A stretch of DNA of 64,000 bases from Microvirga zambiensis WSM3693. GTDB lineage: Bacteria; Pseudomonadota; Alphaproteobacteria; Rhizobiales; Beijerinckiaceae. The notes beneath the pieces were generated by a model, which saw nothing but the letters and a program-made list of their open reading frames with translations, was not told where the DNA came from and searched no databases. Of the stretch, positions 26,101-48,653 are shown piece by piece. The stretch lies in contig NZ_JAERQD010000012.1 of assembly GCF_016735695.1 (NCBI RefSeq), positions 1-64,000 of the forward strand. Reading direction: 5' to 3'. The position numbers were made by a program, and so were the translations under genes. Every line of letters starts with the position of its first letter. Positions within the stretch are counted from its first letter, which is position 1.

Positions 26101-26125
26101 AACGGGCGACCCGGAAGCGGGTTCC
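26101..26125 (-). promoter_or_regulatory. sigma-EcfG-type promoter of secreted proline-rich protein
   Basis: On the reverse strand GGAAC (26125-26121), 16 bases, then CGTT (26104-26101) match the alphaproteobacterial general-stress promoter exactly. It ends 22 bases before the ATG at 26078. Confidence 0.7.
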
Positions 26126-26132
26126 GGCAAAG

Positions 26133-26996
26133 CTATTCCGCGGCCATGGCCGGCGCGCTCGCCATCTGCAGATAGAGCTGACGCAGCCTCTGCGTGATCG
26201 GGCCCGGCTTGCCGTCGGCGACCGGGCGCCCGTCGATGGACACCACCGGCAGCACGAAGTTCGAGGCGCTGGTCAGGAAGGCCTCGGCCGCCGCATAGGC
26301 CTCATCTACCGTGAAGCGGCGCTCCTCGAGGGCGATCCCGCTTTCCCGTGAGAGCCACAGGAGGGACTTGCGCGTGATCCCTGGCAGGATGGCCTGGGAG
26401 AGCGGGCGCACGACGATGCTCCCCTCCCTCGTGACGATGAAGGCGCTCGACGAGCCGCCCTCGGTCACGAAACCGTCCTCCACCAGCCAGGCTTCCTGGG
26501 CGCCGGCCTCTTTGGCCGCCTGCTTGGAGAGAACCTGGGCGAGCAGGTTGATCGACTTGATGTCCCGCCGCTGCCAGCGCATGTCGGGAACGGTGACCAC
26601 CGCGATCCCCTTCTCCGCCGCCGGAGCATTCGCAATCGCCTTGGCCTGGGTGAACATGGCCACGGTAGGCTCGGCGTTCTCGGGGAAGAAGAAGTCCCGC
26701 TCCGCGACGCCGCGGGTGACCTGGAAGTAGATGAAGCCTTCCGTCATGCCGTTGCGGCGGACAAGCTCTTCTTGGAGATGCGTCCATTCTGCCCGGGAAT
26801 AGGGGTTCGGAATGCGAACCTCTCCGAGCGAGCGCTCCAGGCGCTCGAGATGGGCCTCATTGTCGATCAAGCGCCCGTCGAGCACCCCGACACCCTCGTA
26901 GACGCCGTCTCCGAACAGGAAGCCGCGGTCCATGAAAGGCACCTTGGCCTCTTCGATCGGGAGGAAGGATCCATTCAGGAAGACGATTCGGGACAT
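26133..26996 (-). CDS. D-amino-acid aminotransferase (class IV PLP enzyme)
   Basis: The protein of 287 residues opens IVFLNGSFLPIEEAKVPFMD then RGFLFGDGVYE. The PLP Lys is in DIKSINLLAQVLSKQ, and the cofactor-binding GGSSSAFIV and LPGITRKSLLWL blocks follow. It interconverts D-alanine and D-glutamate with 2-oxo acids and so supplies D-Glu for the cell wall. Branched-chain aminotransferase and ADC lyase are related, but the VYEGVGVLDGRL pattern favours the D-specific branch. Confidence 0.85.
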   Translation of the reverse strand: MSRIVFLNGSFLPIEEAKVPFMDRGFLFGDGVYEGVGVLDGRLIDNEAHLERLERSLGEVRIPNPYSRAEWTHLQEELVRRNGMTEGFIYFQVTRGVAERDFFFPENAEPTVAMFTQAKAIANAPAAEKGIAVVTVPDMRWQRRDIKSINLLAQVLSKQAAKEAGAQEAWLVEDGFVTEGGSSSAFIVTREGSIVVRPLSQAILPGITRKSLLWLSRESGIALEERRFTVDEAYAAAEAFLTSASNFVLPVVSIDGRPVADGKPGPITQRLRQLYLQMASAPAMAAE

Positions 26997-27116
26997 GCCA
27001 ACTCCAAGGGCGTTATGGGGCGTTACGCGATTCGAAGCTTAACCTATGGGCAGCTGAGCCGCTCGACCTATATCCCCGAGGGCACCTGCAGGCTTTCGAG
27101 GATAGGTACCGCCATC

Positions 27117-27731
27117 ATGAGATCGATGCCACTTCTCATTTTGACAGCCCTGCCATTCCTGTTCATGACGGTGCCGGCCCCAGCGGACACCCTGCCCGCC
27201 AAGACCTGGTTCAAACAGCAGGGCTATGTCGGACCGGCGGGAGGGCGGATCATCGCCTGCCACGGCTATGGCTGCGTGCGCCGGATGCAGATTTCCGTCG
27301 ACGGGGCATGGCTCGGCAGGGCCAGGACCATCCTCCAGGCGGGACAGGGGTCTCCGGATGCGGAGCGCCGGGCGCTAGGCGATGTGGTTCGCTCCTATAC
27401 GGCCTATCTGGCGGCGTCCTTCGGCGGAAAACCGGACATACCGGGCTCACCGCCCCAGATGTCGGGCGTCTATGGGCAGATGGATTGTCTGGACGAGACT
27501 ACGAACACGACGAGCCTGCTCCTGGTCCTGCAGGATCAGGGTCTTCTTGCCCATCATGTGGTGGAGTACCCGGAATCGCGCGGCTTCTTCCTCGATGGAC
27601 GCTATCCGCATTTCACCGCCGTGATTGCCGAGAAGCGGACAGGGACGGAATGGGCGGTGGATCCCTGGAAGAAGGCCCCCGGTCAGAGGCCCGATATCCT
27701 GCCGCTCACGAAGTGGCGGCAGGATTCCTGA
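27117..27731 (+). CDS. secreted protein of unknown function with possible Cys-His-Asp site
   Basis: This 204-residue protein has a signal peptide (MPLLILTALPFLFMTVPAPA, cleavage near ADT). The mature part has ACHGYGCVRR, MDCLDETTNTTSLLLVLQD, YPHFTAVIAE and TEWAVDPWKK. The order Cys, His, Asp is that of papain-fold transglutaminase-like proteins; this is an inference only. ATG 27117 or 27126 are both possible starts. It stands alone and its last bases face the SWIB gene. Confidence 0.6.
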   Translation: MRSMPLLILTALPFLFMTVPAPADTLPAKTWFKQQGYVGPAGGRIIACHGYGCVRRMQISVDGAWLGRARTILQAGQGSPDAERRALGDVVRSYTAYLAASFGGKPDIPGSPPQMSGVYGQMDCLDETTNTTSLLLVLQDQGLLAHHVVEYPESRGFFLDGRYPHFTAVIAEKRTGTEWAVDPWKKAPGQRPDILPLTKWRQDS

Positions 27732-27745
27732 TAAGATGAGTGATC

Positions 27746-28066
27746 TTATTTCAGATGCTGGGCGAGGTGCTTGTTCATCTCGAACATCGTCACCTTCGGC
27801 TTGCCGAAAATCGGCTTCAGCTTGTCGTCGGCGAGAATCTCGCGCTTGTTCTCGGGGTTCTGAAGATTGTTCTTCTTGATGTAATCCCAGATCTTGCTCA
27901 CGACCTCGCCGCGCGGCAACGGATCCGAGCCTACGATGGCGGCCAGTTCCTTGGACGGCTGCAAAGGCTTCTGAAGAGCATTGGGCTTGGAGCCGGCTGC
28001 CTTAGCGGCAGGCTTGTCTGCAGCCTTCTTCGCACTGGCTTTTCCGTCTGTAGTCTTGGTCGGCAT
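27746..28066 (-). CDS. SWIB/MDM2-domain protein
   Basis: This 106-residue protein has a Lys/Ala-rich N-terminal tail (residues 1-30), then a SWIB domain: ELAAIVGSDPLPRGEVVSKI, WDYIKKNNLQNPENKREI and DDKLKPIFG. Such small proteins occur in chlamydiae and alphaproteobacteria and probably bind DNA or chromatin-like complexes. There is no obvious operon. Confidence 0.88.
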   Translation of the reverse strand: MPTKTTDGKASAKKAADKPAAKAAGSKPNALQKPLQPSKELAAIVGSDPLPRGEVVSKIWDYIKKNNLQNPENKREILADDKLKPIFGKPKVTMFEMNKHLAQHLK

Positions 28067-28250
28067 GTATTCCTCCGGGAATCGTATGGGAAAGCTTATC
28101 GACAGCTCGAACCTGAGCCCGACAGCTCATTGACCGAACGTCGGTCGGGCACGCCGGAGAGACTTACCGGCGCCCGGCCCCCTGACAGAAGGTCAATTCC
28201 GGCAGAGCTTATGTCCGCACAACGCCGTCAGCAAGCCGCAGTTCAGGAAT

Positions 28251-28703
28251 TTAGGCGGTTTTCGGAAAGGGCAGAACCTTGGCAGGCTGTTCGCTGGAAG
28301 GCCGTGGGGTTTTGGCAACATGCCAAGCCCGCTTCGTCCGCTCCACCGCCGACTGGACATGCGACACGATGGACTCGTTCGGACAGGGCTTTGCCAGAAA
28401 GGCGGCGCCGGGAGGCAGATCGCCCTGCGACGGCCATTGCCGGCCGGACATGATCAGGATCTCCGTATCCGGCCACTCCCGATGGACGCGGTGAGCGAGC
28501 TCGAAGCCGTTGCACCCGAGGGGCATATCCACATCCGTCAGCAGAACCTCGACCTGCAGCCCCGCCTCGAGCAGGACCAGGGCCTCGGCCGAGTTGGCGG
28601 CCTCGACGACCTTGAACCCGACGTCCTCGAGAAGATCTGAGATGAAAAGGCGGATCAGAGGCTCATCTTCGACGAGCAGGATCGTGGAGGGGTCGGCGGA
28701 CAT
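28251..28703 (-). CDS. single-domain response regulator
   Basis: The protein of 150 residues is a receiver with an intact active site: acidic EDE at residues 12-14, Asp57 in LLTDVDMP, Ser in LIMSGRQ and Lys in FLAKPC. A short polar tail follows, with no output domain. It should act by protein contact in a phosphorelay. A perfect sigma-EcfG-type promoter lies about 50 bases upstream. uvsE and a second such regulator are next to it. ATG 28703 opens the fold. Confidence 0.85.
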   Translation of the reverse strand: MSADPSTILLVEDEPLIRLFISDLLEDVGFKVVEAANSAEALVLLEAGLQVEVLLTDVDMPLGCNGFELAHRVHREWPDTEILIMSGRQWPSQGDLPPGAAFLAKPCPNESIVSHVQSAVERTKRAWHVAKTPRPSSEQPAKVLPFPKTA

Positions 28704-28750
28704 CAAATGTCTTGGCTCACTAGAACTGGGCTCACTGAACAATGTTCGAC

Positions 28751-28775
28751 AACGCCGCCCAATCGGTTTGGTTCC
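28751..28775 (-). promoter_or_regulatory. sigma-EcfG-type promoter of single-domain response regulator
   Basis: Reverse strand GGAAC (28775-28771), 16 bases, CGTT (28754-28751). This is an exact match to the general-stress promoter, 48 bases before the ATG at 28703. Confidence 0.72.
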
Positions 28776-28806
28776 GAGAGAAAAGCCGGAATCTTGCAAC
28801 TTTGTC

Positions 28807-29841
28807 TCATGCGCCAACCGCCGCCAGGCGTGTTTCCATATGCCGTGCCAATCCCTCGACGGCGATGTTCTTGAGCTTCGCCTCGATTTCGAAATCGGAC
28901 CAGGACAGGTGGCGCATCACCAGGTCGTTGACTGCCTCGTTCCACATGAGGTCCGAATGGGCGCGTAGGTCCTTCGGCTTGATCCCCCCAGCCACCAACG
29001 CCCCGAAATCGGGCAGCACCGCGATGTCCTGATCGGGCAGGAATTCCTCCCGTGAGACGCTCACGTGACTGACCGGCCTGACGCCACGCCAGGATGCGAC
29101 GATGCGTGCGATCCGGGGATCGTCGGGCTCGATATATTCGCCCCTGCTCATGATCCAGTGATGATGAAGATCGAGAACGAGCGGCACATCGTCGGCGAGA
29201 GGCAGAAGGTCGTCGAGGCCGAAGCTGACCTCGTCGTTCTCCACCGTGATGAGATTTCGCGCGCTCTGCGACAGGTGCTTGAGTCCGCTGCGGATGCCCT
29301 CCGCGCCGACGGCCTTCGCGCCGCCGTGAATGTTGATATGCGCCCCATGCGGGTGCCAGCCTTCGCCGAAGCCCATGAGCGTCATGATCTCGGCATGATA
29401 CTCGAACTCCGCCCGGCCGTTCACCGCGGCCGTGGGATTGGCGGAAGCGATCACGCAGAACTGGCTCGGATGCATGCTGAGACGGACATCGCCGTCGCGG
29501 GCGATCTGCCCCAGGTCCGAGAGCTTCGTTTCGATCAGCCGGCGCAGATCGGGATCGCGATAATGGTCGTGACAGGCCGGATGCGTGTAGCCGGGGAGCA
29601 GGTCGCTGGAGAGGCGGTGAAGCCGCTCGCGCTTCGGCCGGGTCGCGACATGCGCGATCTGAAGCCGAAACGCCTCCAGGTTATGCGCGACGACGGATGC
29701 GAGCTTGTCATAGGCCGCGCTCCGTTCCAGACGGCCGAGATAGGCCATCGTCACCGTGCTCGTGTTCATCTGCCGCGTGGTCTGGGCTGAACCGTCGTCG
29801 GGAATATATTTGCAGCAGAAGCCGAATCGCGAGTCTTGCAT
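28807..29841 (-). CDS. uvsE: UV damage endonuclease UvsE (UVDE)
   Basis: The protein of 344 residues shows the UVDE TIM-barrel pattern: FGFCCKYIP near the start, VRLSMHPSQFCVIASANP, HINIHGGAKAVG, NLITVENDEVSFG and PLVLDLHHHWI with metal-binding His, Glu and Asp residues. It nicks 5' to UV photoproducts and abasic sites. The C-terminal 40 residues form a helical extension. It lies between two single-domain response regulators that have stress-type promoters; its own promoter is not evident. Confidence 0.93.
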   Translation of the reverse strand: MQDSRFGFCCKYIPDDGSAQTTRQMNTSTVTMAYLGRLERSAAYDKLASVVAHNLEAFRLQIAHVATRPKRERLHRLSSDLLPGYTHPACHDHYRDPDLRRLIETKLSDLGQIARDGDVRLSMHPSQFCVIASANPTAAVNGRAEFEYHAEIMTLMGFGEGWHPHGAHINIHGGAKAVGAEGIRSGLKHLSQSARNLITVENDEVSFGLDDLLPLADDVPLVLDLHHHWIMSRGEYIEPDDPRIARIVASWRGVRPVSHVSVSREEFLPDQDIAVLPDFGALVAGGIKPKDLRAHSDLMWNEAVNDLVMRHLSWSDFEIEAKLKNIAVEGLARHMETRLAAVGA

Positions 29842-29871
29842 GGTCAGGACGCCATTTGCGGGACCGATGCT

Positions 29872-30225
29872 CTAGCACGGCAATCGATCGGCGGCGATGT
29901 CTTCGACGGAGGCGACGACAACCCGCTCGTCATAAGGCTTCGCGATGAAGGCGGCCTGCTGGAACTGCCGGGGCACATCGGAAGGCGTCGAGGCGGACAC
30001 GAAGGCGAACGGGATCTGTCGCTCGATGAGCGCCTCGGCCACGCCGAAGCTTTTTCCGCCTATCACATCGATATCGAGCAAGGCGCAATCGAAACCATCG
30101 TCGAGGTGGCGGTAGGCCTCGGACAGCGACGTCACGGCATCGGGAACCTCATGGCCTTCCGCTTCAAGGATCGCCTGCAAATCCAGCGCGATCATCGGAT
30201 CGTCTTCCAGGATCAGAATGCGCAC
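29872..30225 (-). CDS. single-domain response regulator resembling FAT GUY class
   Basis: The protein of 117 residues is a bare receiver: acidic EDD at residues 7-9, Asp51 in CALLDIDVIGG and Lys in AFIAKPYDE. The region PFAFVSASTPSDVPRQFQ resembles the FAT GUY class (MrrA, SdrG) used in alphaproteobacterial general-stress signalling, with VSAS in place of the usual ATGY-like residues. The start is GTG 30225, decided by AGGGGG 5 bases upstream; the longer upstream frame has no better site. A near-consensus sigma-EcfG promoter lies about 90 bases upstream. Confidence 0.8.
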   Translation of the reverse strand: MRILILEDDPMIALDLQAILEAEGHEVPDAVTSLSEAYRHLDDGFDCALLDIDVIGGKSFGVAEALIERQIPFAFVSASTPSDVPRQFQQAAFIAKPYDERVVVASVEDIAADRLPC

Positions 30226-30316
30226 GGCAACCCCCTGTTCGCTGGCCACTCGGCAGTATCGCCAGCGGAGATGAAAGGCTTCTTGAACAGCGGGAATTTT
30301 GTCCCGGCAGACATGC

Positions 30317-30341
30317 AACCGGTTGAACGGGTCGCAGTTCC
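30317..30341 (-). promoter_or_regulatory. candidate sigma-EcfG-type promoter of FAT GUY-like regulator
   Basis: Reverse strand GGAAC (30341-30337), 16 bases, GGTT (30320-30317). There is one mismatch in the -10 block. Confidence 0.5.
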
Positions 30342-30590
30342 TGGGAATCGTCCGGCCCAGACGATCTTTGACGATTCAGGGTTAACGCATGTCACGCTGC
30401 GGAAGGCGATCGATCGCGACCACCTCTTGAATCCGGCCTGCCCCGTTCCTATCTGACGCTGAACCTGGTGGCATCATCGCCCGCCAGATGCGGTCACGTT
30501 GCCGATTTGATGACGCCGGATGTACGCGCATCATTTCGCCGTGGCCGTTGTTGTTTCTGCCTTTATCGATAGGCCTCGGGCATGAAAAAA
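30342..30590. other. intergenic region, nothing recognised
   Basis: This stretch has no convincing open frame. Its right end runs into the terminator of the leftward stress operon. Confidence 0.35.
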
Positions 30591-30610
30591 GCGCCGGCTT
30601 GCACCGGCGC
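30585..30610 (-). terminator. terminator of four-gene stress membrane operon
   Basis: Read on the reverse strand, GCGCCGG and CCGGCGC form a 7-base-pair stem followed by six T residues. Confidence 0.85.
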
Positions 30611-30637
30611 TCTTCATTCTCGATGGGTGATCGGGGC

Positions 30638-31312
30638 TCAATGGCGGTTGGCATCCCGCTGGTTGCCGAACTCGCTGTCATGGCGGCTGAAGCGAGCCTC
30701 GTCGCCACTGAAGGCGTCCTCGACATATTCGCGGCCGCGGTCGGCCGCTTCGCGGGCGTAACGCATGCCTTGATTGCGCACCTCGTCCGCCCACTCCCCG
30801 AACATCTCGTTCTCGCGGCGAGTACGTGGAAGCAACGCACCGAGGAGAAGGCCGGCTGCGAGGCCGACGAGACCGACGACCATCGGGTTCTCGGCTACGT
30901 AGCTCTGAACACCACCACGGGCATGGCCGAAGGCGCGTGCGGAGCGATTGCCTGCGTGCGTCGCGCGACGGCGCTGGTTCTGATAGGTGTCGGACGCCCA
31001 TTCCGAGGCGCGGTCATACGTATCGCGAGCCCATTCCGACGCACCTTCATAAGCGTCTTCGGCGCGGTTGCGCACCTGATCTGCCGCCTGCTGCGCTTTG
31101 CCGGCAAGAGACTCGCCTTGTGGCTGCGACGACTGGCCCTTCTGCTGGCCCTGGCTGCTCTGCGCGGATTTCTGATCCTGCGCATGAGGCATCGGTGCCT
31201 CGCCGATATTCCCGACGGACGTCCCTGCAGACACCTTGCCGGTGGTGCCTGTCTCCGTCCCGCTCTGCTTGTCGTTGCCGGTACTGCCGTTATCGTTCTT
31301 GGTGTTCACCAT
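30638..31312 (-). CDS. stress-type membrane-anchored protein with glycine-zipper helix (nutrient-deprivation-type)
   Basis: This 224-residue protein is hydrophilic and Gln/Ser/Gly-rich to about residue 65. Amphipathic repeats follow (EDAYEGASEWARDTYDRASE, then SDTYQNQ). One glycine-zipper membrane helix (MVVGLVGLAAGLLLGALL) lies at about 143-160, and the tail is charged. The design resembles ElaB/YqjD-type proteins and proteins labelled nutrient-deprivation-induced in rhizobia. It is last in an operon of four small membrane genes read leftward from 32681. Its molecular role is unknown. Confidence 0.65.
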   Translation of the reverse strand: MVNTKNDNGSTGNDKQSGTETGTTGKVSAGTSVGNIGEAPMPHAQDQKSAQSSQGQQKGQSSQPQGESLAGKAQQAADQVRNRAEDAYEGASEWARDTYDRASEWASDTYQNQRRRATHAGNRSARAFGHARGGVQSYVAENPMVVGLVGLAAGLLLGALLPRTRRENEMFGEWADEVRNQGMRYAREAADRGREYVEDAFSGDEARFSRHDSEFGNQRDANRH

Positions 31313-31342
31313 CGAAATCTCCTGTTCAATTCACTGAAATCG

Positions 31343-31756
31343 CTAGAAGCGGGACGTCATGCCGGGACGCTCGTAAAGGTCGTCCGGGCTTTGCAGCGGA
31401 TCCTCCTGCGAGCCGTAGAGACGTGGATCCTCGATCTCCATCATGAGATGCTCTTCGGTGATGAGATCCTCGTCGGCGGCGATCAGCCGCCGGTGATGAC
31501 GCGAGGGCTGCCGGCCGAGCCGGTAAGCAAGAAGGCCGATGCCCATGGCGATCAGCATCACCGGAACCGGATTGCGCTTGACCGTTTCCAGAACCCGGTC
31601 GTAGAGCGGGCCATACTGGCTGCTGCGCGCAGTGCCGAGCATGTCGTCGACGACGCCGGAGACGGACATCTTGTCCTGCAGACGATCGATGGTCCGGTCG
31701 AGCTGGGCGCGGCTGCGTGCGATGTCCTGCTCGAGATCCTGCAAGTCCTGCGTCAT
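31343..31756 (-). CDS. DUF3618 membrane protein
   Basis: The protein of 137 residues opens with the DUF3618 helix LEQDIARSRAQLDRTIDRLQ, has one membrane helix (PVPVMLIAMGIGLLAYRLG) and a polar acidic tail. AAAGGGG upstream serves ATG 31756 or the adjacent ATG 31759. The start overlaps the stop of the preceding gene, so it is translationally coupled. The family is uncharacterised and usually found beside the holin-like DUF1469 gene, as here. Confidence 0.78.
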   Translation of the reverse strand: MTQDLQDLEQDIARSRAQLDRTIDRLQDKMSVSGVVDDMLGTARSSQYGPLYDRVLETVKRNPVPVMLIAMGIGLLAYRLGRQPSRHHRRLIAADEDLITEEHLMMEIEDPRLYGSQEDPLQSPDDLYERPGMTSRF

Positions 31757-32157
31757 CATGCACCCCTTTCTGACAGAACTTCCGCATCGCGCTTGAGCGA
31801 GCGCATCGCTCTTTGCGGCGCAAGCGAGGAGGATGTCATGGTGCTGCGGCCCCACAGCCCGAGTCCGATGGCGATCAGGGCCATGACGCCACCGACGATG
31901 AGTGCTGCCAGCGCCTCGGAATTGACCACGGTCGCCAACCATTTCACGAGCGACTCGGTAAACAGCATCAAGGCCGCGATGGCGAAGATCGCCGCCACCA
32001 CGATCATCGCGAGCCCCATGAACAGGGTTCGGATATTCTGGGTGATCTCCGTCCGGAAGAGGGTGAATTCCTTCTGCGCGAGATCGGTCGACTCGCGCAG
32101 AGCATCACCGACGAGACCTTGGATGGTTTGATTGTTGCCCTGCATGGCGGCCCCCAT
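31756..32157 (-). CDS. holin-like membrane protein (DUF1469, Phage_holin_3_6)
   Basis: The protein of 133 residues begins with an amphipathic helix (LVGDALRESTDLAQKEFTLF). Two membrane helices follow (LFMGLAMIVVAAIFAIAALM and AALIVGGVMALIAIGLGLW), as in DUF1469. The ATG at 32157 overlaps the preceding stop (TGATG); ATG 32145 with GGGGG upstream is an alternative. Despite the holin name, no phage genes are near. Confidence 0.78.
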   Translation of the reverse strand: MGAAMQGNNQTIQGLVGDALRESTDLAQKEFTLFRTEITQNIRTLFMGLAMIVVAAIFAIAALMLFTESLVKWLATVVNSEALAALIVGGVMALIAIGLGLWGRSTMTSSSLAPQRAMRSLKRDAEVLSERGA

Positions 32158-32681
32158 CAGGCGCCGGTTCGGTTGCGCGGGCGCTGCGCCTGTCGGACGG
32201 GGGCGCGTGCAGGACCGGCCGTGCGATGAACAGCGTCATCGTAGCGGAGATCGTCCGCCGTGCTCTTGATGAAACGGGCAGCGAGGAAGCCGACCGCGAC
32301 CGACACCGCCGCCACGGTCGCCGGGCGACGGCGCACCATATCCTCGAACTCGTTGAAGAAATCCGCGAAGGTGCGCTCGCGGATCGATTCCGCCAGTTGC
32401 TCCAGGCCTTCCGCGGCGGTGTCGACGACGGCACGAATGTTGGGGCGCTCGTCGAAGGACCGTGTGGACTCGCGCAGGGAATTCGCGAAATCCGCGACCG
32501 AAGCCGCTACGTCGTCCTTGCGACGGTCGACGTAGTCAGTCGCCTGCTCGCGCGCGGAATCGATGAAGTAACGGCTGCGCTCCACGGCGGCACCAGCGAT
32601 ATCGCCGACATCGCCCTTCAGCGCATCCCAATCCTCATTGCCGTTGTCCTGCTGCCTGTTGGTGTTCTGCTGTCCCACCAT
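32157..32681 (-). CDS. DUF883-like membrane-anchored protein, first gene of stress operon
   Basis: The protein of 174 residues is amphipathic and helical (VERSRYFIDSAREQATDYVD, RESTRSFDERPNIRAVVDTA), with a C-terminal membrane helix RRRPATVAAVSVAVGFLAAR and a basic tail. ATG 32681 has GAGG 6 bases ahead. A GGAAC-N17-GGTT promoter lies 28-53 bases upstream, so the whole operon is probably under the general-stress sigma factor. The function is unknown. Confidence 0.7.
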   Translation of the reverse strand: MVGQQNTNRQQDNGNEDWDALKGDVGDIAGAAVERSRYFIDSAREQATDYVDRRKDDVAASVADFANSLRESTRSFDERPNIRAVVDTAAEGLEQLAESIRERTFADFFNEFEDMVRRRPATVAAVSVAVGFLAARFIKSTADDLRYDDAVHRTAGPARAPVRQAQRPRNRTGA

Positions 32682-32708
32682 GGTGACCTCTCTTAATCGT
32701 GAGTGTCT

Positions 32709-32734
32709 AACCATTTAGAAGCGCGGCAGGTTCC
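32709..32734 (-). promoter_or_regulatory. sigma-EcfG-type promoter of stress membrane operon
   Basis: Reverse strand GGAAC (32734-32730), 17 bases, GGTT (32712-32709). One mismatch to CGTT; 28 bases before the ATG at 32681. Confidence 0.6.
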
Positions 32735-32790
32735 GAACATGCCCAGAGCTCAATGCTTTAGCTCCGGAGAGAGGTCTGAGGCCTCCCCCG

Positions 32791-32886
32791 CTAGAGCTGT
32801 TTCCACTTGCGTGGAACCGGCTCTCTTCTTTGCTTTGCCGCATTTTTTGACGGCGAACCGGATCCACTTCGCCGAAAAGTGCGCTA
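32791..32886. repeat. dispersed palindromic repeat, family A (diverged)
   Basis: It has ctagagctgtttccacttgc at the left, gaaccggatccacttcgccg in the core and aaagtgcgct at the right. The layout matches family A copies elsewhere but the arms are less complete. It abuts the stop of the XRE gene. Confidence 0.5.
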
Positions 32887-33270
32887 GCTCACCGAAGCGA
32901 GCCAATCGACCAGATCGGCGACCTTCCTGCGAGCCTCGTCGTCCTTCAGCTTCAGGAACCCGCGCACGAGACGGTCGCTTTCCGAGCGGGTCAAAAATTC
33001 AGCCACGAGGCTGTCGTCGGAGAAGCCTCCGGCGCGAAGACCGGGAAGGCCTTCGAAGAAGAACTCGATGCTGACATCCAGGATCCCAGCGATATGAAGC
33101 AGACGGCTTGCGCCGATGCGGTTCACGCCTTTCTCGTATTTCTGGACCTGCTGGAAGGTAAGCCCCAAGGCATCGGCAAGTTTCTCCTGGCTCATTGCAA
33201 GCATGATCCGCCGAGCCCTGACCCGGCTGCCGATATGCCTGTCGACCTGGTTGGGTGACTTCTTTTGCAA
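32884..33270 (-). CDS. XRE-family transcriptional regulator
   Basis: The protein of 128 residues has a Cro/C1 helix-turn-helix (VRARRIMLAMSQEKLADALG, FQQVQKYEKGVNRIGASRL), a common type in Hyphomicrobiales. The C-terminal half is a helical region (ARRKVADLVDWLASVS). The start is TTG 33270, decided by AGGAG 6 bases upstream; no ATG precedes the helix-turn-helix. Targets are unknown. It lies beside the insertion sequence but shows native-looking composition. Confidence 0.85.
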   Translation of the reverse strand: MQKKSPNQVDRHIGSRVRARRIMLAMSQEKLADALGLTFQQVQKYEKGVNRIGASRLLHIAGILDVSIEFFFEGLPGLRAGGFSDDSLVAEFLTRSESDRLVRGFLKLKDDEARRKVADLVDWLASVS

Positions 33271-34652: not shown

Positions 34653-34722
34653 TATGCAACATGGCGAGGCTGAGGCTTCCGACCCCATCATGCGGCGGTG
34701 TCTGCCGACCGCGGAGAGAACC

Positions 34723-36543: not shown

Positions 36544-37038
36544 TCAGGCCGCCTTGGTGTTCACGCGGGCCTCGGCGAGCTTGGTCAGGAGCTGATCGGT
36601 CTTCTTTTCCTCTTGAAGGTTCTGATCGAGAAGCTTTGCGGCATCGCGCATGCCAAGCTCCTCGGCCCAGGTCTTCAGCGTGCCGTAGCGGGTGATCTCG
36701 TAATGCTCGACCGCCTGCGCTGCGGAAAGGATGCCGGCATCGAGCGCCTCGCTGTCGGCGAAATCTTCCATGATTCCCTTGCCCTCTTCGATAATGCCGT
36801 TGATCGCCTCGCAGGTCACGCCGCGGGCTGGCTTGCCGAGCATTTCGAAGACCTGCTCGAGCCGCTCTATCTGGCCTTCCGTTTCTTCGAGATGGGTTTC
36901 GAAGGCCTGCCTCAGCTCTTCGGATTCCGCGTTCTTCGCCATCTTCGGCAGCGCCTTCAGGATCTGCTTCTCGGCGTAGAAGATGTCTTTCAGGGTGTGA
37001 AGGAAGAGGTCGTTCAGGGTTTTCTCAGCTGCTGGCAT
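36544..37038 (-). CDS. DUF892 ferritin-like stress protein (YciE/YciF family)
   Basis: The protein of 164 residues is a four-helix bundle. The first helix is LFLHTLKDIFYAEKQILKAL, later helices have THLEETEGQIERLEQVFEML and QAVEHYEITRYGTLKTWAEE. Glu/His pairs fit a di-iron site. ATG 37038 has GGAG 8 bases ahead. A perfect sigma-EcfG-type promoter lies at 37069-37093. A paralogue with the same promoter type is at 48048. Its role is stress protection; the precise reaction is unknown. Confidence 0.88.
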   Translation of the reverse strand: MPAAEKTLNDLFLHTLKDIFYAEKQILKALPKMAKNAESEELRQAFETHLEETEGQIERLEQVFEMLGKPARGVTCEAINGIIEEGKGIMEDFADSEALDAGILSAAQAVEHYEITRYGTLKTWAEELGMRDAAKLLDQNLQEEKKTDQLLTKLAEARVNTKAA

Positions 37039-37068: not shown

Positions 37069-37093
37069 AACGAAGGTCAAGCTTTGATGTTCC
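37069..37093 (-). promoter_or_regulatory. sigma-EcfG-type promoter of DUF892 gene
   Basis: Reverse strand GGAAC (37093-37089), 16 bases, CGTT (37072-37069). An exact match, 31 bases before the ATG at 37038. Confidence 0.78.
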
Positions 37094-37120: not shown

Positions 37121-37146
37121 GGAACAACAGCGCTTCGCGTCGCGTT
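37121..37146 (+). promoter_or_regulatory. sigma-EcfG-type promoter of DUF2892 gene
   Basis: GGAAC (37121-37125), 17 bases, CGTT (37143-37146). An exact match, 30 bases before the ATG at 37177, and back to back with the divergent DUF892 promoter. Confidence 0.78.
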
Positions 37147-37176: not shown

Positions 37177-37401
37177 ATGAATGAAGAGCCCAATCTCAGC
37201 ACCGCGGAACGCGGGATTTATATGCTCGTGGGCCTCGGCCTCGCGGCCGCGGCGGCCAAGCCCCGTCCGAACCCGCTATTGAACGTTCTCGCGCTAGCCG
37301 GTGGCTCCTACCTGGCTTGGCGCGGATATGTGGGCAATTGCCCGATCAAAGCAGCGCTCACCGGCGATCACGACAGCGAACGCCTGGTCTACCGGGGCTG
37401 A
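37177..37401 (+). CDS. DUF2892-like small membrane protein
   Basis: The protein of 74 residues has two hydrophobic helices (IYMLVGLGLAAAAAK and LLNVLALAGGSYLAWRGYVG), then NCPIKAAL and a charged end. This is the YgaP-type DUF2892 membrane hairpin. AAGGAG precedes ATG 37177. The perfect stress-type promoter and divergent DUF892 gene mark it as a stress gene. A hairpin follows. Confidence 0.78.
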   Translation: MNEEPNLSTAERGIYMLVGLGLAAAAAKPRPNPLLNVLALAGGSYLAWRGYVGNCPIKAALTGDHDSERLVYRG

Positions 37402-37727: not shown

Positions 37728-37870
37728 GATGTGGTTCCCGCGAGTGTTGCCTCAACAAAGAACGCGCATCCCCCGGCTAAGGTTGCGGCGGAGAGTTTTC
37801 CCAGGCCCGATTTTTCATCTTCTCGCCTCACTTGAGGCGGACCTTTGCGGCTCAAAACGGAGATGCCGCC

Positions 37871-38038
37871 ATGAATCCTGCCGGAGAACACTGGAATTAT
37901 GAGGCTGTTCAGGCCCTCCTGGCGCTTGCCCGAGAAGGGGTCCCGGTCTCAGTCATCAGCCTGAAGCTGAAACGTTCGGTCACGGACGTGCGAGCCAAGC
38001 TCGACGATCTCGGCATCACCCCGGCCGCAGAGGTTTAG
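37871..38038 (+). CDS. small GcrA-like helix-turn-helix protein
   Basis: The protein of 55 residues reads NYEAVQALLALAREGVPVSV then ISLKLKRSVTDVRAKLDDLG. This Trp-opening trihelical pattern resembles the DNA-binding N-terminus of GcrA, but it is a stand-alone unit. ATG 37871 has CGGAG upstream. The function is unknown. Confidence 0.55.
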   Translation: MNPAGEHWNYEAVQALLALAREGVPVSVISLKLKRSVTDVRAKLDDLGITPAAEV

Positions 38039-41044: not shown

Positions 41045-41065
41045 GCAGCCTATTGGGATCGCCCG

Positions 41066-41500
41066 ATGCGCGAGCCTCGCGCAGAGCTGAGCCTCGGGCG
41101 TCTGACGAAAAGACCTGACTTCGTCGCGGCGGCCTCTGGCCGCCGCTTTCATACCGAGCGGATGTCGGTCCAGGCTCGGCTGCGCGAGGGTTCGGGCCTC
41201 GGCCTGCGCTTCGGCCTCACGGTGACGAAGCGGGTCGGCCACGCCACCGAGCGAAACCGGATCAAGCGCCGGCTCCGGGCCGCCATCCCCACGGCCGGCC
41301 GGGATTACGCAACGATCGATGCGGATATCGTCGTCATCGGACGGCGCGACATCCTCTCCGCCGATTTCGACGTGCTCATCGACGATCTTCGGCGCGCCCT
41401 GCGGACGGTCACCAAGCCGAAAAGCGCCGCTCCCGCAGAGCGTACCAAATCCTCCTCACCTCCCTCCAACGGCGAGCGTCGCGGACATTCCCATGCGTGA
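41066..41500 (+). CDS. rnpA: ribonuclease P protein component
   Basis: The protein of 144 residues has the RnpA motif [20 protein letters not shown] then RRLR. It aids the RNase P RNA in maturing tRNA 5' ends. The C-terminal 30 residues are a polar Ser/Pro-rich extension that overlaps the start of yidC by eight bases. Confidence 0.95.
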
Positions 41501-43352
41501 AGACAACAAAAACCTCATCATCGCCATCGCCCTGTCGCTGGCGGTTTTGCTAGGCTGGCAATACTTCTTTGCGGCTCCTCAGGCCGAAAGACAAAGGCAG
41601 GCCGCCCAGCAGGCGCAATCCACGCAGGTCAATCCCAACGCGCCGAACGCGCCCGCGAGCCCGAGCCAGGCCGGCGGGGCCTCGCCCACGGTGCCGGGAA
41701 CGGTCCCGAGCACTCCCTCGGCTCCAACCATCCAGACTCGTGAGGCAGCCCTCGCCGCCTCGCCCCGCGTGGCCATCGACACGCCCTCCATCGCCGGCTC
41801 GATCAATCTGCGCGGCGGCCGCATCGACGACGTGTCCCTGAAGAACTATCGCGAGACGGTCGATCCCAAGAGCCCGATCATCGTGCTTCTGTCGCCCACC
41901 GGCGTCCAGAATCCCTATTACGCGGAATTCGGCTGGCTCGGCACCCAGGCCGGCAGCCTGCCGAACCAGAATACCGTGTGGACGGCCGACAAGACCTCGC
42001 TCTCCTCCGGCAGCCCCGTCACCCTGACCTGGCAGAACGAACAAGGGCTCGTTTTCCGCCGCACGATCTCGGTCGACGACAAGTTCATGTTCACGGTGAA
42101 GGATGCGGTCGAGAACCGCGGCACGGCGCCCGTGACCCTGCAATCCTACAGCCTCGTCTCGCGTCACGGCCGCCCCGTCACGCTCGGCTACTATGTGCTG
42201 CACGAGGGAATGATCGGCGTTCTCGGCGACGAGGGCCTGCAGGAAATCACCTACGCGAACCTGGACAAGAAGGAGCCGATCTCGGGCGGCAACACGGTCG
42301 GCCAGATCTGGAATTCGGTCACCGGCGGCTTCCTCGGCATCACCGACAAGTACTGGGCCGCCGCCGTCATTCCCGACCAGACGCAGCCTTTCCAGGGCTC
42401 CTTCACCTCGCAGCAGGGCCAGACGACCGATCGCACCTACCAGGCCACGATCGCCGGCGCGTCGCAGACGCTCCAGCCCGGCGCGACCACGGAAGTGACC
42501 CAGCGCCTCTTCGCCGGCGCCAAGGAGGTCGCGACCGTCGACAACTATCATGTGACCTACGGCATCAAGAACTTCGATCTCCTGATCGACTGGGGCTGGT
42601 TCTACTTCATCACCAAGCCGCTCTTTAAGGTGCTCGACTTCTTCTTCCGCCTGTTCGGCAATTTCGGCATCGCGATCCTGCTGGTCACGGTGTTGCTGAA
42701 GATCCTGTTCTTCCCGCTCGCCAACAAGTCCTACCGGTCCATGGCGAAGATGAAGGCAGTGCAGCCGGAGATGGCCTCCATCCGCGAGCGCTACGGCGAC
42801 GACAAGATGAAGCAGCAGCAGGCGTTGATGGAGCTCTACCGCAAGGAGAAGATCAATCCGGTCGCGGGCTGCTGGCCGGTGCTGATCCAGATCCCGGTGT
42901 TCTTCGCGCTCTACAAGGTGCTGTTCGTCACCATCGAAATGCGCCATGCGCCGTTCTTCGGCTGGATCCGCGACCTCGCCGCGCCCGATCCGACCACGAT
43001 CTTCAACCTGTTCGGCCTCCTGCCCTACAACCCGGGCGCGGTGCCGGTCATCGGCCACTTCCTGATGCTCGGCGTTTGGCCGATCATCATGGGCATCACC
43101 ATGTGGCTGCAGATGAAGATGAATCCGGAGCCGCCGGACCCGGTTCAGAAGCAGGTCTTCGCCTGGATGCCGGTGATCTTCACCTTCATGCTCGGCTCGT
43201 TCCCTGCCGGCCTCGTGATCTACTGGGCCTGGAACAACCTGCTCTCGGTGACCCAGCAGGGCTTCATCATGAGGCGCAACGGCGTGAAGATCGAACTCTT
43301 CGACAATCTGCGCAAGACTTTCAGCCGCAAGCCAAGCGCTGCCAAGAGCTGA
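41493..43352 (+). CDS. yidC: membrane protein insertase YidC
   Basis: The protein of 619 residues begins with the helix [20 protein letters not shown], has a Pro/Gln/Ala-rich linker (residues about 32-85) and then a large periplasmic beta domain. The conserved insertase core includes [40 protein letters not shown] and [19 protein letters not shown]. It inserts proteins into the inner membrane alone or with Sec. ATG 41493 overlaps rnpA. Confidence 0.96.
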
Positions 43353-43376
43353 AGCGGATAAAGACCGAATGCGATC

Positions 43377-43404
43377 ATCCCCGGGCCTCGTCCCGGGGAT
43401 TTTC
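43377..43404 (+). terminator. terminator of rpmH-rnpA-yidC operon
   Basis: ATCCCCGGG and CCCGGGGAT form a 9-base-pair stem followed by four T residues. Confidence 0.82.
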
Positions 43405-43491
43405 GTTTGGCCCCCTGCCGCCGCTTGTCGCGATTTTCTCTGGCCGCCCCGCCTCTATATTCTCAAGGGTCGAGACGGAGCGTGACAGGCC

Positions 43492-45033
43492 ATGAGTGCC
43501 CCAGAAAGCCGGCTGAAGCGGAGTTCCAAAGCCGATGTTCCGCCCCGTGAGGTCGAGCTGAAGCTCGAACTCGCCTCCGGGACCCTCGACGAGTTGCTTG
43601 CCCATCCGGCCCTGTCTTGTCTCACGCCCCTGGCCGACCAGAGCGGACAGCTCCATGCGATCTATTTCGATACGGACGATCACACCCTTTACCGGGAGGG
43701 CATAAGCCTGCGCATCCGACACCGAGGCGGAACCGCCGTCCAGACCATCAAGGCCGAAGGCTCCAAGGGAAGCCTCGCCATGGACCGCAGCGAATGGGAG
43801 ACCCCGGTCGACGGCGAACTCGACCTGTCCGCCGCGGCCGGGACGGCGCTCGAAGCGCTTCTGACGGATGAGGCGACGCGGGAGAGCCTCAAGCCCGTCT
43901 TCACGGTCGATATGGACCGACAGGCCTTCGAAGCGGAACTCGACGATGCTCTGATCGAGGTGGCGCTCGACCGGGCCAAGGCATCCGGCAAGCACCAGGA
44001 GGTCGCCTTTTCCGAAGTTGAGCTGGAGCTGAGGAAGGGAAGTCCTGCCGCTCTCTTCGCTTTCGCCCGACGCCTCGGCGAGACGATTCCCTTGCGCCTG
44101 TCCACGGTAACGAAATCGGAGCGCGGCTACCGGCTTCTGGAGACCGCATCGCTTCAGCCGTTCCGCGCCGAACCGATCGAGCTGCTGAAGAACGCCACCT
44201 GCGCCGAGGCCTTTCAACGCGTTGCGCGGGCATGCCTGACCCAGATGCTGCGGAACGAAGCTCTCGTGCGGCAGACGCAGGATCCCGCATCCCTGCACCA
44301 GATGCGGGTGGGCCTGCGCCGCCTGCGCGCTGCCATCTCCCTGTTCGGGAAACAGCTGCTGACGGATCCCGAGAGCACGACGATCAAAGGCGATCTGCGC
44401 TGGGCCGGACAGGCGATGGGCTATGCGCGCGACCTCGACGTCCTTCTGGAGCGGATCACCTCCACGAAGGCCGAGTACGACAAATCGCAGATCGGGAAGG
44501 TCAAGCGGCACCGGGCCGGGGCTTACCGCGACCTGCTCCAGACCCTCGAATCGCGCCGCTTCATGGATGTGGTGCTCAAGGCGGCGGCCTGGATCGAAGC
44601 CGGAGACTGGACGACATCCGAGGCGCCCGAATTGAAGCAGGCCCGGGATCGCCTCGCTCGGGATTTCGTCTCGGACGAGTTGTCCCGCCGTTTCAAGCGC
44701 ATCCTCAAGATTGCCAAGCGCCTGAGGAAGCGCAGCGAGGAGGAACGCCACGAGCTGCGGATCCGCATCAAGAAACTGCGCTACGGCTCCGAATTCTTCG
44801 CTGCACTCTTCCCATCCAAGAAAAAGCAGAAGCGCCGCAGGAAGCTCGCTGCCATTCTGGAGGAGCTTCAGGAGAAACTCGGCGAACTGCACGATCTGGC
44901 GGTCAGCGGCTCCCTCGTCCCCTCCCTGGTCGAAACCTCGCCCAAGCAGGCCGAGCGGCGGCGAGAGAAGCTTCTCGACAAGAGCAAGTCTGCTGCGAAA
45001 TCCCTCGCCAAGATCGATCCCTTCTGGCCGTAA
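43492..45033 (+). CDS. CYTH-CHAD domain protein (predicted inorganic triphosphatase)
   Basis: The protein of 513 residues has a CYTH domain at about 18-215 with the metal-binding ExExK motif (EVELKLEL) and IYFDTDDHTLYREGISLRIR. A CHAD domain follows at about 225-500 with repeated His/Arg helices (HQMRVGLRRLRAAISLF, RHELRIRIKKLRYGSEFF). The CYTH part resembles YgiF-type triphosphatases. CHAD is thought to bind polyphosphate. ATG 43492 is 140 bases after yidC and beyond its terminator. Confidence 0.9.
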   Translation: MSAPESRLKRSSKADVPPREVELKLELASGTLDELLAHPALSCLTPLADQSGQLHAIYFDTDDHTLYREGISLRIRHRGGTAVQTIKAEGSKGSLAMDRSEWETPVDGELDLSAAAGTALEALLTDEATRESLKPVFTVDMDRQAFEAELDDALIEVALDRAKASGKHQEVAFSEVELELRKGSPAALFAFARRLGETIPLRLSTVTKSERGYRLLETASLQPFRAEPIELLKNATCAEAFQRVARACLTQMLRNEALVRQTQDPASLHQMRVGLRRLRAAISLFGKQLLTDPESTTIKGDLRWAGQAMGYARDLDVLLERITSTKAEYDKSQIGKVKRHRAGAYRDLLQTLESRRFMDVVLKAAAWIEAGDWTTSEAPELKQARDRLARDFVSDELSRRFKRILKIAKRLRKRSEEERHELRIRIKKLRYGSEFFAALFPSKKKQKRRRKLAAILEELQEKLGELHDLAVSGSLVPSLVETSPKQAERRREKLLDKSKSAAKSLAKIDPFWP

Positions 45034-45084
45034 AGGCGCCCTGGCGCCTTGAACAATGCGAGCCGAGCGCCGATAAGGGCCCCC

Positions 45085-45750
45085 ATGACCGAGACAAGCC
45101 CCCCGAACCAGGACGTCGACCCCTTTCTCGAAATCGGCCGCAAGCTCTTTGCCGGCGAAGCCGATTTCATCTGGGCCGCCAATGCCCTGAACAACCTGCC
45201 GCCCATGAGCAAGGTGGAGATCGCCTTTGCGGGGCGCTCCAACGTGGGCAAGTCGAGCCTCGTCAACGCGCTGACCGGGCGCAACACGCTCGCCCGCACC
45301 TCGCACACGCCGGGTCGCACCCAGCAGCTCAATTTCTTTAATATCAACGACCGCTTCCACCTCGTCGACATGCCCGGCTACGGCTTTGCCGCCGTCGAGA
45401 AGCAGAAAGTGCAGGCCTGGACGCAGCTGATCCACGATTACCTGCGCGGAAGGGCGAGCCTCGCCCGCGTCTACGTGCTGATCGACGCCCGCCACGGCAT
45501 CAAGCCGGTGGACGAGGCTGTGCTAGAGACCCTCGGCACGGCCGCCGTCTCATACCAGATCGTGCTGACCAAGGCGGACGAGCTGAAGCCCGGCGAGCTC
45601 GAAAAGCGCATGGCGGACACCCTGAAGAAGATCGAGAAGCGGGCAGCCGCCTTCCCCGAGATCCTGCCGACCTCGAGCCGGACGGGCTTCGGCATCCCGG
45701 AGCTTCGCGCGGGTATCGCCAGGCTCTTGAGCGAAAGAGGCGCAGTGTGA
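45085..45750 (+). CDS. engB: ribosome biogenesis GTP-binding protein EngB (YihA/YsxC)
   Basis: The protein of 221 residues has G1 [14 protein letters not shown], a [11 protein letters not shown] switch, G3 [10 protein letters not shown] and G4 VLTKADEL. It assists late assembly of the 50S subunit. ATG 45085 agrees with homologues; the upstream in-frame start is less likely. The next gene starts within its stop. Confidence 0.95.
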
Positions 45751-46115
45751 CTCTTGCTGCCCGCCTGCTGCTCGTGCTCGCCTCCCTGGCAGGCCTCCTC
45801 GGCGTCGGCCTCTCCGCCGCCGCGGCCCACGTTACCGGTGGCAACCTCGCCACGGCAGCACAGTTCCTGCTCTTCCACGCCCCTGCCCTCCTCGCCCTCG
45901 TGGCGCTGATCGCAGTGGGCGCCGTGAACCCGATGCTGGGCCAGATTGCCGGCTACGTGCTGGTGCTCGGCCTCGCCCTGTTCTGCGGCGATCTCTCCCG
46001 CCGCGCCTTTTCCGGAGTGGCGCTGTTTCCAAGGGCGGCGCCGACGGGAGGTATCCTCCTCATGCTCGGCTGGGTTCTCATCGGAGCCTCAGCCCTTCTT
46101 CGCCTGAGAGCCTGA
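45747..46115 (+). CDS. DUF423 small membrane protein
   Basis: The protein of 122 residues has four hydrophobic helices ([53 protein letters not shown] and [18 protein letters not shown]), the DUF423 layout. The start is GTG 45747, overlapping the engB stop by four bases. The function is unknown. Confidence 0.85.
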
Positions 46116-46191
46116 AGTCTCTGTTTGCAGCGGCCCATCCTTGGGCTAGAACGCAGGCCGTTTGATCCTTATGTCCGCGCCGGAGCCGTTC

Positions 46192-47097
46192 ATGTCCGAT
46201 CCGTCCACGCCCCTTCCCGACGTTCATGTGCAGGCCGAGGTGCTTGTGCAGGCGCTGCCGCACATGCAGCGCTACGACCAGCAGGTGGTGGTGATCAAGT
46301 ATGGCGGCCATGCCATGGGCGACCGTGCGGCGGCCGAGGATTTCGCCGAGGACGTGGTGCTGCTCGAGCAATCGGGCATCAAGCCCATCGTCGTCCATGG
46401 CGGCGGCCCGCAGATCGGCAAGATGCTGGAAAAGCTCGGCATCAAGTCCGAATTCAAGGGCGGGCTGCGCGTGACGGATTCGGCCACCGTCGAGGTGGTC
46501 GAGATGGTGCTCGCCGGCTCCATCAACAAGCAGATCGTCGGCTGGATCGGGGCCGAGGGCGGCAAGGCGGTGGGCCTGTCCGGGAAGGACGGCAATATGG
46601 TCACCGCCCGCAAGGTGACCCGCACGGCGGTCGATCCCGATTCCAACATCGAGAAGGTGGTGGATCTCGGCTTCGTCGGCGAGCCGGAGCATGTGAACCG
46701 GGCGGTTCTCGACCAGGTGCTCCAGGCCGAGCTGATCCCCGTCCTCGCGCCGGTCGCCACTGGCCACGACGGCCAGACCTACAACGTGAATGCCGACACC
46801 TTCGCCGGCGCCATCGCGGGCGCCCTGACGGCGAAGCGCCTCCTGCTCCTCACCGACGTTCCGGGCGTTCTCGACAAGAACAAGAACCTCATCCCGGAAA
46901 TGACCATCGAGGATTGCCGTCGCCTGATCGCCGACGGCACCATCACGGACGGCATGATCCCGAAGATCGAGACCTGCATCTATGCCCTGGAAAAGGGCGT
47001 CGAGGCGGTGGTCATCCTGGACGGCAAAGTGCCGCATGCGGTGCTGCTGGAACTGTTCACCGACCACGGCGCTGGCACCCTGATCCGCAGGGGGTAG
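46192..47097 (+). CDS. argB: acetylglutamate kinase
   Basis: The protein of 301 residues is ArgB, the second step of arginine synthesis. It shows [13 protein letters not shown], the substrate loop [43 protein letters not shown] and [23 protein letters not shown] 46192 is preferred because CCGGAG lies 7 bases ahead; ATG 46171 would add seven residues. Confidence 0.95.
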
Positions 47098-47181
47098 GGC
47101 TTCGCCCTTCACGAGGGGGCCAATAACGCCTATATTGAAGTCAGTGGGGCCGCACGGCCCCATTGTCGTCTCTGAAGATCC

Positions 47182-47913
47182 ATGAACGCGAAGCCTGCTT
47201 TCGAGAACCATCTGTCTTCCGCCGATTCCCGCCTCTTCTCGCATGTGGAGACGTGGGTCTTCGACCTGGACAACACCCTCTACCCGCACACCTCGCGGGT
47301 CTGGCCGCAGATCGACCAGCGCATCACCCTCTACGTCACGGAATTGTTCGGCATCGACGGGCTGTCCGCGCAGGCGCTGCAGAAATATTTCTACCACAAA
47401 TACGGCACGACCCTTAAGGCGCTGATCGACGAATACGACATCGATCCGATGGACTTTCTCGATTTCGCGCACGACATCGACCACACGGATATCGAGCTGA
47501 ACCACGGCCTCGGCGAGGCGATCCAGAAGCTACCGGGCCGCAAGCTCATTCTCACCAATGGCTCGCGCAAGCATGCGGAGAACGTGGCGAGGAAAATCGG
47601 CATCCTCGACTGTTTCGAGGACGTGTTCGACATCGCCGCTTCCAACTTCGTGCCGAAGCCGGACCGGCGCGCCTATGAGATCTTTCTCGAGAAGCACGGA
47701 GTGGAGCCCGCCCGCTCCGCCATGTTCGAGGATATCGCCAAGAACCTGACCGTGCCGCATGAACTCGGCATGACCACGACCCTGATCGTGCCCAAAACCT
47801 TCGATCCGTTCCGGGAAAGCTTCGAGCAGGAGGCGGTCAAGACGCCGGAAATCGACTACATCACCAACGATCTGGCGGATTTTTTGAAGGCTTATGCGTT
47901 GCCGGTGAAGTAA
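47182..47913 (+). CDS. pyrimidine 5'-nucleotidase (HAD superfamily)
   Basis: The protein of 243 residues has HAD motif I WVFDLDNTLYPHTSRVWPQI, motif II KLILTNGSRKHAE, Lys in VPKPDRRAYE and motif IV MFEDIAKNL. This SDT1-like branch dephosphorylates UMP and CMP. The spacing from argB is about 85 bases, so co-transcription is possible. Confidence 0.85.
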   Translation: MNAKPAFENHLSSADSRLFSHVETWVFDLDNTLYPHTSRVWPQIDQRITLYVTELFGIDGLSAQALQKYFYHKYGTTLKALIDEYDIDPMDFLDFAHDIDHTDIELNHGLGEAIQKLPGRKLILTNGSRKHAENVARKIGILDCFEDVFDIAASNFVPKPDRRAYEIFLEKHGVEPARSAMFEDIAKNLTVPHELGMTTTLIVPKTFDPFRESFEQEAVKTPEIDYITNDLADFLKAYALPVK

Positions 47914-47926
47914 CGGCCAACCGCGA

Positions 47927-48014
47927 CGTCATCCCCGGACTTGTTCCGGGGACCCACGTCTTTGCATGATAGGGCCCTAAGGCGTGGATGGCCGGGACAA
48001 GCCCGGCCATGACG
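47927..48014. repeat. dispersed repeat, family C
   Basis: It has cgtcatccccggacttgttc at the left, gggacccacgtctttgca in the centre and gacaagcccggccatgacg at the right. It forms nested inverted repeats and matches copies at 55696, 60395 and 61129. Confidence 0.8.
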
Positions 48015-48047
48015 AGTATGTTTCGGTCAGTCGGCTGCAGCGCTGAC

Positions 48048-48551
48048 TTAAGCAGCCTTCGTGTTGATCTTGCTCTCGGCGATCCGGTTGAGCTTCTGAT
48101 CCGTGGATTTTTCCTGATCCAGGATCTGGTGCAGGACGCCGGCGCAATCCTCGCGGCCGAGCTGCTTGGCCCAGGCGACGAGCGTGCCGTAGCGGGTGAT
48201 CTCGTAATGCTCCACCGCCTGCGCGGCGGCGAGCAGGGCGGCGTCGAGAACCTGCGGATCGTCGATGTCGCCGGCAATGTCCTGCGCCTCGTCGATGATG
48301 CCGTCGATCGCCGGGCAGGTCACGCCCTTCGGATCGTGGCCGTGCATGCGGAACACCTGCTCGACCATCTGGATCTGCTGCTCGGTTTCGCCGAGATGGG
48401 TCTGGAAGGCCTGCTTCAGCTGCGGATCGCTCACCTTCTCGATCATTTCCGGCAGCGCTTTCGTGATCTGCTGCTCGGCATAGTAAATGTCCTGCAGAGT
48501 ATGGATGAAGAGATCATCCAACGACTTGATGTCTTTCGACAAAAGGCCCAT
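48048..48551 (-). CDS. DUF892 ferritin-like stress protein (paralogue)
   Basis: This 167-residue four-helix protein is closely similar to the product at 36544-37038. Shared blocks include HTLQDIYYAEQQITKALPEM, THLGETEQQIQMVEQVF and AQAVEHYEITRYGTL, and both end NTKAA. ATG 48551 has AAGGA upstream. A perfect sigma-EcfG-type promoter lies at 48629-48653, within the end of the rmuC region. Confidence 0.87.
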   Translation of the reverse strand: MGLLSKDIKSLDDLFIHTLQDIYYAEQQITKALPEMIEKVSDPQLKQAFQTHLGETEQQIQMVEQVFRMHGHDPKGVTCPAIDGIIDEAQDIAGDIDDPQVLDAALLAAAQAVEHYEITRYGTLVAWAKQLGREDCAGVLHQILDQEKSTDQKLNRIAESKINTKAA

Positions 48552-48628
48552 AGCGCAATCCTTCCCGGGTTCTGAGAAAAGCCAACGTGCGAGCGCCATC
48601 AAACTGGCGCCTCGTTCAGCCTGGGAAG

Positions 48629-48653
48629 AACGTTGCGGGCGGATGCCGGTTCC
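48629..48653 (-). promoter_or_regulatory. sigma-EcfG-type promoter of second DUF892 gene
   Basis: Reverse strand GGAAC (48653-48649), 16 bases, CGTT (48632-48629). An exact match, 78 bases before the ATG at 48551 and 3 bases past the rmuC stop. Confidence 0.72.

Follow-up and report, generated by a model that had tools for sequence, protein, structure and literature searches.

The window analysed here is a stretch of 64,000 nucleotides (nt) of Microvirga zambiensis WSM3693 (contig NZ_JAERQD010000012.1, positions 1 to 64,000). It contains genes for two DUF892 proteins (A and B), two single-domain response regulators (RR1 and RR2), a four-gene operon (op1 to op4), a small membrane protein and a secreted-type protein, preceded by seven sequences that are very probably promoters of the general-stress sigma factor EcfG (Table 1). 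All seven had been listed in a preliminary description made from the sequence alone, and were found in the window with the sequence class, place and strand given there. Each combines a GGAAC −35 box with a CGTT or GGTT −10 box across a 16- or 17-nt spacer, and sits just ahead of a gene, correctly oriented. No perfect N16/17 matches other than the five CGTT sites occur in the window; two extra GGTT sites (1559–1583 and 45843–45867, both on the minus strand) fall within predicted genes. The distances to predicted starts run from 22 to 77 nt, rather than up to 95 as first described, and hinge on the start codons chosen by a simple gene finder.

Table 1. Putative EcfG promoters and associated genes in the window. 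Distances run from site to predicted start; the last column gives orthologs with a C/GGTT site over orthologs located in Microvirga relatives.
Feature	Coordinates	Strand	Description	Distance (nt)	C/GGTT in relatives
Secreted-protein promoter	26101–26125	-	GGAAC-N16-CGTT	22	18/18
Secreted protein	25725–26078	-	117 residues; signal-peptide-like start (by eye); no Pfam or NCBIfam match		
RR1 promoter	28751–28775	-	GGAAC-N16-CGTT	47	20/20
RR1	28251–28703	-	Single-domain response regulator (PF00072)		
RR2 promoter	30317–30341	-	GGAAC-N16-GGTT	67	8/20 (NGTT 20/20)
RR2	29872–30249	-	Single-domain response regulator		
UvdE	28807–29748	-	UvdE-type UV endonuclease, 123 nt downstream of RR2, same strand		
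op1 operon promoter	32709–32734	-	GGAAC-N17-GGTT; N16 in most relatives	27	20/20
op1	32157–32681	-	C-terminal hydrophobic segment (by eye)		
op2	31756–32157	-	Holin-X family (PF07332)		
op3	31343–31759	-	DUF3618 (PF12277)		
op4	30638–31312	-	Glycine-rich hydrophobic segment		
DUF892 A promoter	37069–37093	-	GGAAC-N16-CGTT	30	20/21 (CGTT; one AGTT)
DUF892 protein A	36544–37038	-	DUF892 (PF05974)		
Small-membrane-gene promoter	37121–37146	+	GGAAC-N17-CGTT, divergent	30	20/20
Small membrane protein	37177–37401	+	74 residues; PF11127 (YgaP-like transmembrane)		
Eighth site	37759–37784	+	AGAAC-N17-GGTT, degenerate	86	
55-residue protein	37871–38038	+	Conserved in relatives; no family match		
DUF892 B promoter	48629–48653	-	GGAAC-N16-CGTT	77	14/14
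DUF892 protein B	48048–48551	-	DUF892 (PF05974)		

By position, the seven sites lie far above chance. In 300 simulations from a first-order Markov model of the window, perfect sites average 0.65 (maximum 4), and the earlier estimate of about one by chance was fair for raw counts; in the 100 nt preceding a start, C/GGTT sites average 0.04 (maximum 1), against seven observed. Positional enrichment also holds across the genome. Among the first 30 perfect sites listed, 15 have a predicted start no more than 150 nt downstream, whereas 2 of 30 matches to the reversed motif do; once the five window sites are set aside the count for the motif itself is 10 of 25. Upstream CGTT sites occur at N16 and N17, and at N14, N15, N18 and N19 they number 0 of 11 in this genome (a figure that is biased because the stretches were picked around CGTT matches) and 0 of 14 in relatives. 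In the fetched stretches other first −10 bases also occur upstream (G and A in this genome, G and T in relatives), together with a few sites of deviant spacing whose −10 box is not CGTT (for example TGTT at N19 in three of five).

To assess conservation, stretches surrounding gene A were taken from 21 of the 47 congeneric relatives, selected to give long contigs and to cover a range of identities; orthologs were located by tblastn and sites sought in the 250 nt upstream. GGAAC-N16/17-NGTT was found in all 133 ortholog-promoter pairs located, no located ortholog failing the pattern, and the sites are thus conserved in related species, as in a sigma-EcfG regulon. The C/GGTT version is present in 120 of the 133, whereas twelve non-target genes in the same stretches yield none among 216 cases (three of which lie at a stretch end, with no upstream sequence). 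Because the genomes are related, these counts do not represent independent events; the total for gene B is 14 because 7 of the 21 hits were cross-hits to gene A. Identity within GGAAC and GTT follows by construction, since the search pattern fixes those letters, and pairwise identity averages 45–85% in the spacers and 30–67% in the left flanks.

Of 30 Microvirga loci read upstream of gene A, the window's own included, all have a perfect site; GGTT stands before op1 in 30 of 30 loci, again counting the window's own. The divergent site before the small membrane gene is found in 29 of the 30 loci read at gene A, and in the exception (G026) it lies just past the 160-nt span examined. The first −10 base is a C at five promoters across the genus (with one A seen) and a G at two, and at RR2 it varies (T in 11, C in 6, G in 3 and A in 1, counting the window). 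Conservation is unusually high in the spacer of the op1 promoter (identity 0.85) and in the leader, at window positions 32682–32734. An RNA hairpin in this leader was considered and rejected: for the 22 different leaders among 35 sequences, the mean z relative to mononucleotide-shuffled controls was −0.2, and no consensus structure emerged.

The preliminary description had called these promoters scattered, which is misleading: the secreted-protein gene, the small membrane gene and those between them (25.7–38.0 kb) recur together across the genus. Seven of the eight target genes form one conserved neighbourhood. RR1, RR2 and op1 accompany gene A in 20 of the 21 stretches (the exception is G008, whose op1 falls beyond the sampled stretch). 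They also do so at 23 of 26 named Microvirga loci, and of the remaining three, two are short contigs. All 48 Microvirga genomes contain a DUF892 match, whose identity is at least 79% in 47 of them. Gene B lies near this neighbourhood in most relatives, 10–17 kb from gene A in many genomes and distant or on another contig in some (G016, G031, G012).

An eighth site can be added to the set of seven promoters. This site, AGAAC-N17-GGTT, precedes the gene for the 55-residue protein, and in 13 of 14 relatives in which that gene was called its ortholog is preceded by GGAAC-N16-GGTT. The window's sequence is compatible with GAAC-N16,17-C/GGTT, the EcfG consensus of Methylobacterium extorquens as given in excerpts of a published study (PMC4814048), by which GGTT is an accepted −10 box.

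The window holds targets only, as had been stated; the regulators are encoded elsewhere in the genome, on contig C202, where genes for PhyR, NepR and an extracytoplasmic function (ECF) sigma factor taken to be EcfG are adjacent. PhyR comprises sigma-like domains and a receiver and matches NF006623 at 367.8 bits (cut-off 240). NepR matches PF18557 above the Pfam cut-off (E 4.6e-17), with a score of 33.4 against the NCBIfam NepR equivalog that is below the cut-off of 100. EcfG sites lie before phyR, before nepR and around their neighbours; nine perfect sites, including several divergent pairs, occupy about 5.5 kb around the phyR, nepR and sigma genes (L039:10947-16393).

The genome also contains seven EcfG-like sigma genes of at least 55% identity (counting the query) and three at 37–41%, located on contigs C202, C203, C187, C110, C194, C246, C248, C180 and C183; four EcfG-like sigma genes adjoin a NepR-like match. 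NepR-like matches (E ≤ 0.001) number 11 in this genome, 8 of them above cut-off, and 2–17 (median 6) per genome across it and the 47 congeneric genomes, a number that climbs with genome size (Spearman 0.85). The 115 other genomes of the family that were sampled have 0–6 each.

Beyond the genus, we surveyed the best 80 of 223 DUF892 relatives for sites up to 330 nt upstream. An NGTT site is present at 30 of 30 Microvirga loci and at 31 of 50 other loci, where about 0.5 of 50 would be expected. The whole neighbourhood was not seen within 10 kb on either side of DUF892 at the 50 non-Microvirga loci. In Methylobacterium sp. 2A, genes resembling op1 and op3 are kept, the former behind a CGTT promoter.

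The products of the target genes belong to several families. Both DUF892 proteins match PF05974 far above its cut-off of 23.7 bits (218 bits for A and 213.7 for B). The gene first described as DUF2892 is present, and its family match here is to PF11127, a family formerly named DUF2892. The op4 protein was considered as a DUF883 (YqjD/ElaB) member and rejected, since the scores in its family fall below the Pfam cut-offs and neither DUF883 nor DUF883_C is found in the window protein; among 12 members of its family, DUF883 appears at E ≤ 1 in four (best 0.093) and DUF883_C in three (best 0.0049). RR2 is slightly below the Pfam receiver cut-off (29.5 against 30.2 bits), and its top NCBIfam matches are PRK13435 and PhyR receivers, every one below cut-off. 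None of 16 UvdE orthologs has a C/GGTT site of its own, and in five relatives a CGTC near-site lies about 10 nt before the predicted start; UvdE may be co-transcribed by read-through from the RR2 promoter.

EcfG-type sites elsewhere in the genome precede genes for KGG, Mn-catalase, CsbD, PRC-barrel, short-chain dehydrogenase, DUF2382, erythromycin-esterase-family, glycogen-synthase-type and further receiver proteins; these come from 47 candidates in the stretches sampled, 10 of them family-scanned, and part may be chance. Single-domain receiver-like proteins are repeatedly found behind such sites (L023, L051, L053, two at L054, and both RR1 and RR2); Pfam was applied to both window proteins and to two of the other five. 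Two further elements in the window were left out of the set. A GGAAC-N18-CGTT sequence at 11245–11271 (minus strand) lies directly before a proline-rich open reading frame with a signal-peptide-like start; its spacing is off consensus, upstream CGTT sites at N18 numbering 0 of 2 and 0 of 3. In 16 relatives the gene at 24701–25708 is preceded, at a distance of 31 nt, by an almost unchanging GGCAC-N16/17-CGTT element, which was excluded because its −35 box differs.

Taken together, the motif and its spacing, the position of the sites, their conservation in every ortholog-promoter pair located and the presence of phyR, nepR and an ecfG-type gene elsewhere in the genome make it very probable (about 0.93) that the seven sites and the eighth are promoters of EcfG, in agreement with the general-stress assignment of the preliminary description. 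Several observations weigh against this conclusion. Raw counts of perfect sites exceed those of the reversed motif modestly (145 versus 122 in this genome; 6237 versus 4948 summed over 48 Microvirga genomes, with an excess in 39 and none in 9), so that raw counts alone are weak evidence and many perfect sites elsewhere are probably due to chance. C/GGTT at RR2 is present in just 8 of 20 relatives; this strain has a degenerate copy of the eighth site, and one of the 14 relatives has no such site. Of the non-Microvirga DUF892 loci, 19 of 50 have no site within 330 nt, including all 6 from Methylobacterium and Methylorubrum. Finally, the sigma factor on C202 is taken as EcfG from its place and its relatives, no library model bearing that name. 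The modest raw excess would fit a reading in which the motif matches arose by chance, or were retained for another sigma factor or binding protein; we consider this most improbable given the fixed spacing, orientation and placement right before starts, the drift of the spacers between kept boxes and the EcfG system in the genome.

It is possible, if doubtful, that function is partial, with the five CGTT sites and the op1 promoter active and the RR2 and eighth sites weakened or lost in this strain. The drifting first −10 base at RR2 and the AGAAC and N17 of the eighth site point that way, but RR2 keeps GGAAC-N16/17-NGTT in 20 of 20 relatives and the eighth site still falls within the M. extorquens consensus (excerpts of PMC4814048). 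The constancy of GGTT before op1 and its recurrence before the gene at 37871, in a genome with so many EcfG-like sigma genes, could also mean that these promoters form a separate class for a particular EcfG paralog, CGTT being read by the main EcfG. Such a division seems unlikely: the first −10 base at RR2 varies among all four letters, CGTT precedes the op1 homolog in Methylobacterium sp. 2A, the M. extorquens paralogs are suggested in the same excerpts to recognise similar promoters, and the op1 spacer is conserved as well, so that the constancy of the G does not stand as separate evidence. We give even less credence to an extension of that idea, in which the Microvirga stress response would be layered, the EcfG and NepR complement having expanded (NepR with genome size) and paralogs reading C and G classes differently, such that a −10 code in the neighbourhood sorts targets between branches.

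If the sites are EcfG promoters, the pathway established in other species suggests how they would work. The EcfG-type regulons of Sinorhizobium (RpoE2), Caulobacter (SigT), Sphingomonas and Rhizobium etli share the same partner switch and promoter class. Under stress, phosphorylated PhyR would pull NepR off EcfG, and RNA polymerase with EcfG would initiate a few bases past each CGTT or GGTT box. The output would comprise the two DUF892 proteins, the four small operon proteins with hydrophobic segments, the small membrane and secreted-type proteins and the two single-domain receivers, with UvdE perhaps added by read-through. We infer from the sequence that the sites are transcribed in dependence on EcfG and that their products play protective roles.

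The genes behind these sites are very probably added targets of a known control system, rather than a new sort of system. The sigma-EcfG regulon of M. extorquens AM1 is alike in its promoter and in having several EcfG and NepR paralogs, already in print for Methylobacterium according to the excerpts of PMC4814048; it differs in its target neighbourhood, and many Microvirga genomes hold more NepR-like matches. FATGUY single-domain response regulators (MrrA, SdrG) offer a further likeness, as lone receivers linked to the general stress response (excerpts of PMC5964349). They carry PFxFATG(G/Y), whereas RR2 has PFxF followed by VSA or VTA in 20 relatives and the window protein, and RR2 was therefore not assigned to that class. 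A literature search did not find EcfG together with DUF892, although reports under other names are possible, nor Microvirga, EcfG and 'general stress response' together among the best matches listed; two publications joining Microvirga and PhyR appear to do so incidentally.

A more distant parallel is found in enterobacteria, in which related families stand under the general-stress sigma factor sigma-S (RpoS). YciE and YciF are DUF892 proteins, YciG is a KGG protein and YqjE belongs to Holin-X; yciGFE(katN) is reportedly a sigma-S target. Excerpts of PMC10746276 describe yqjCDEK as another. The likeness rests on DUF892 and Holin-X in the window and on KGG and Mn-catalase behind EcfG-type sites elsewhere in the genome; the sigma factor and promoter are unrelated, and op4 lies below the cut-off for the YqjD family.

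The outcome is a list of probable EcfG targets in Microvirga founded on comparative evidence, and the neighbourhood is compact enough for deletion testing. Several genera of Alphaproteobacteria have EcfG-type promoters before their DUF892 genes, and the enterobacterial parallel suggests that the unrelated general-stress sigma factors EcfG and sigma-S may have converged on overlapping effector families.

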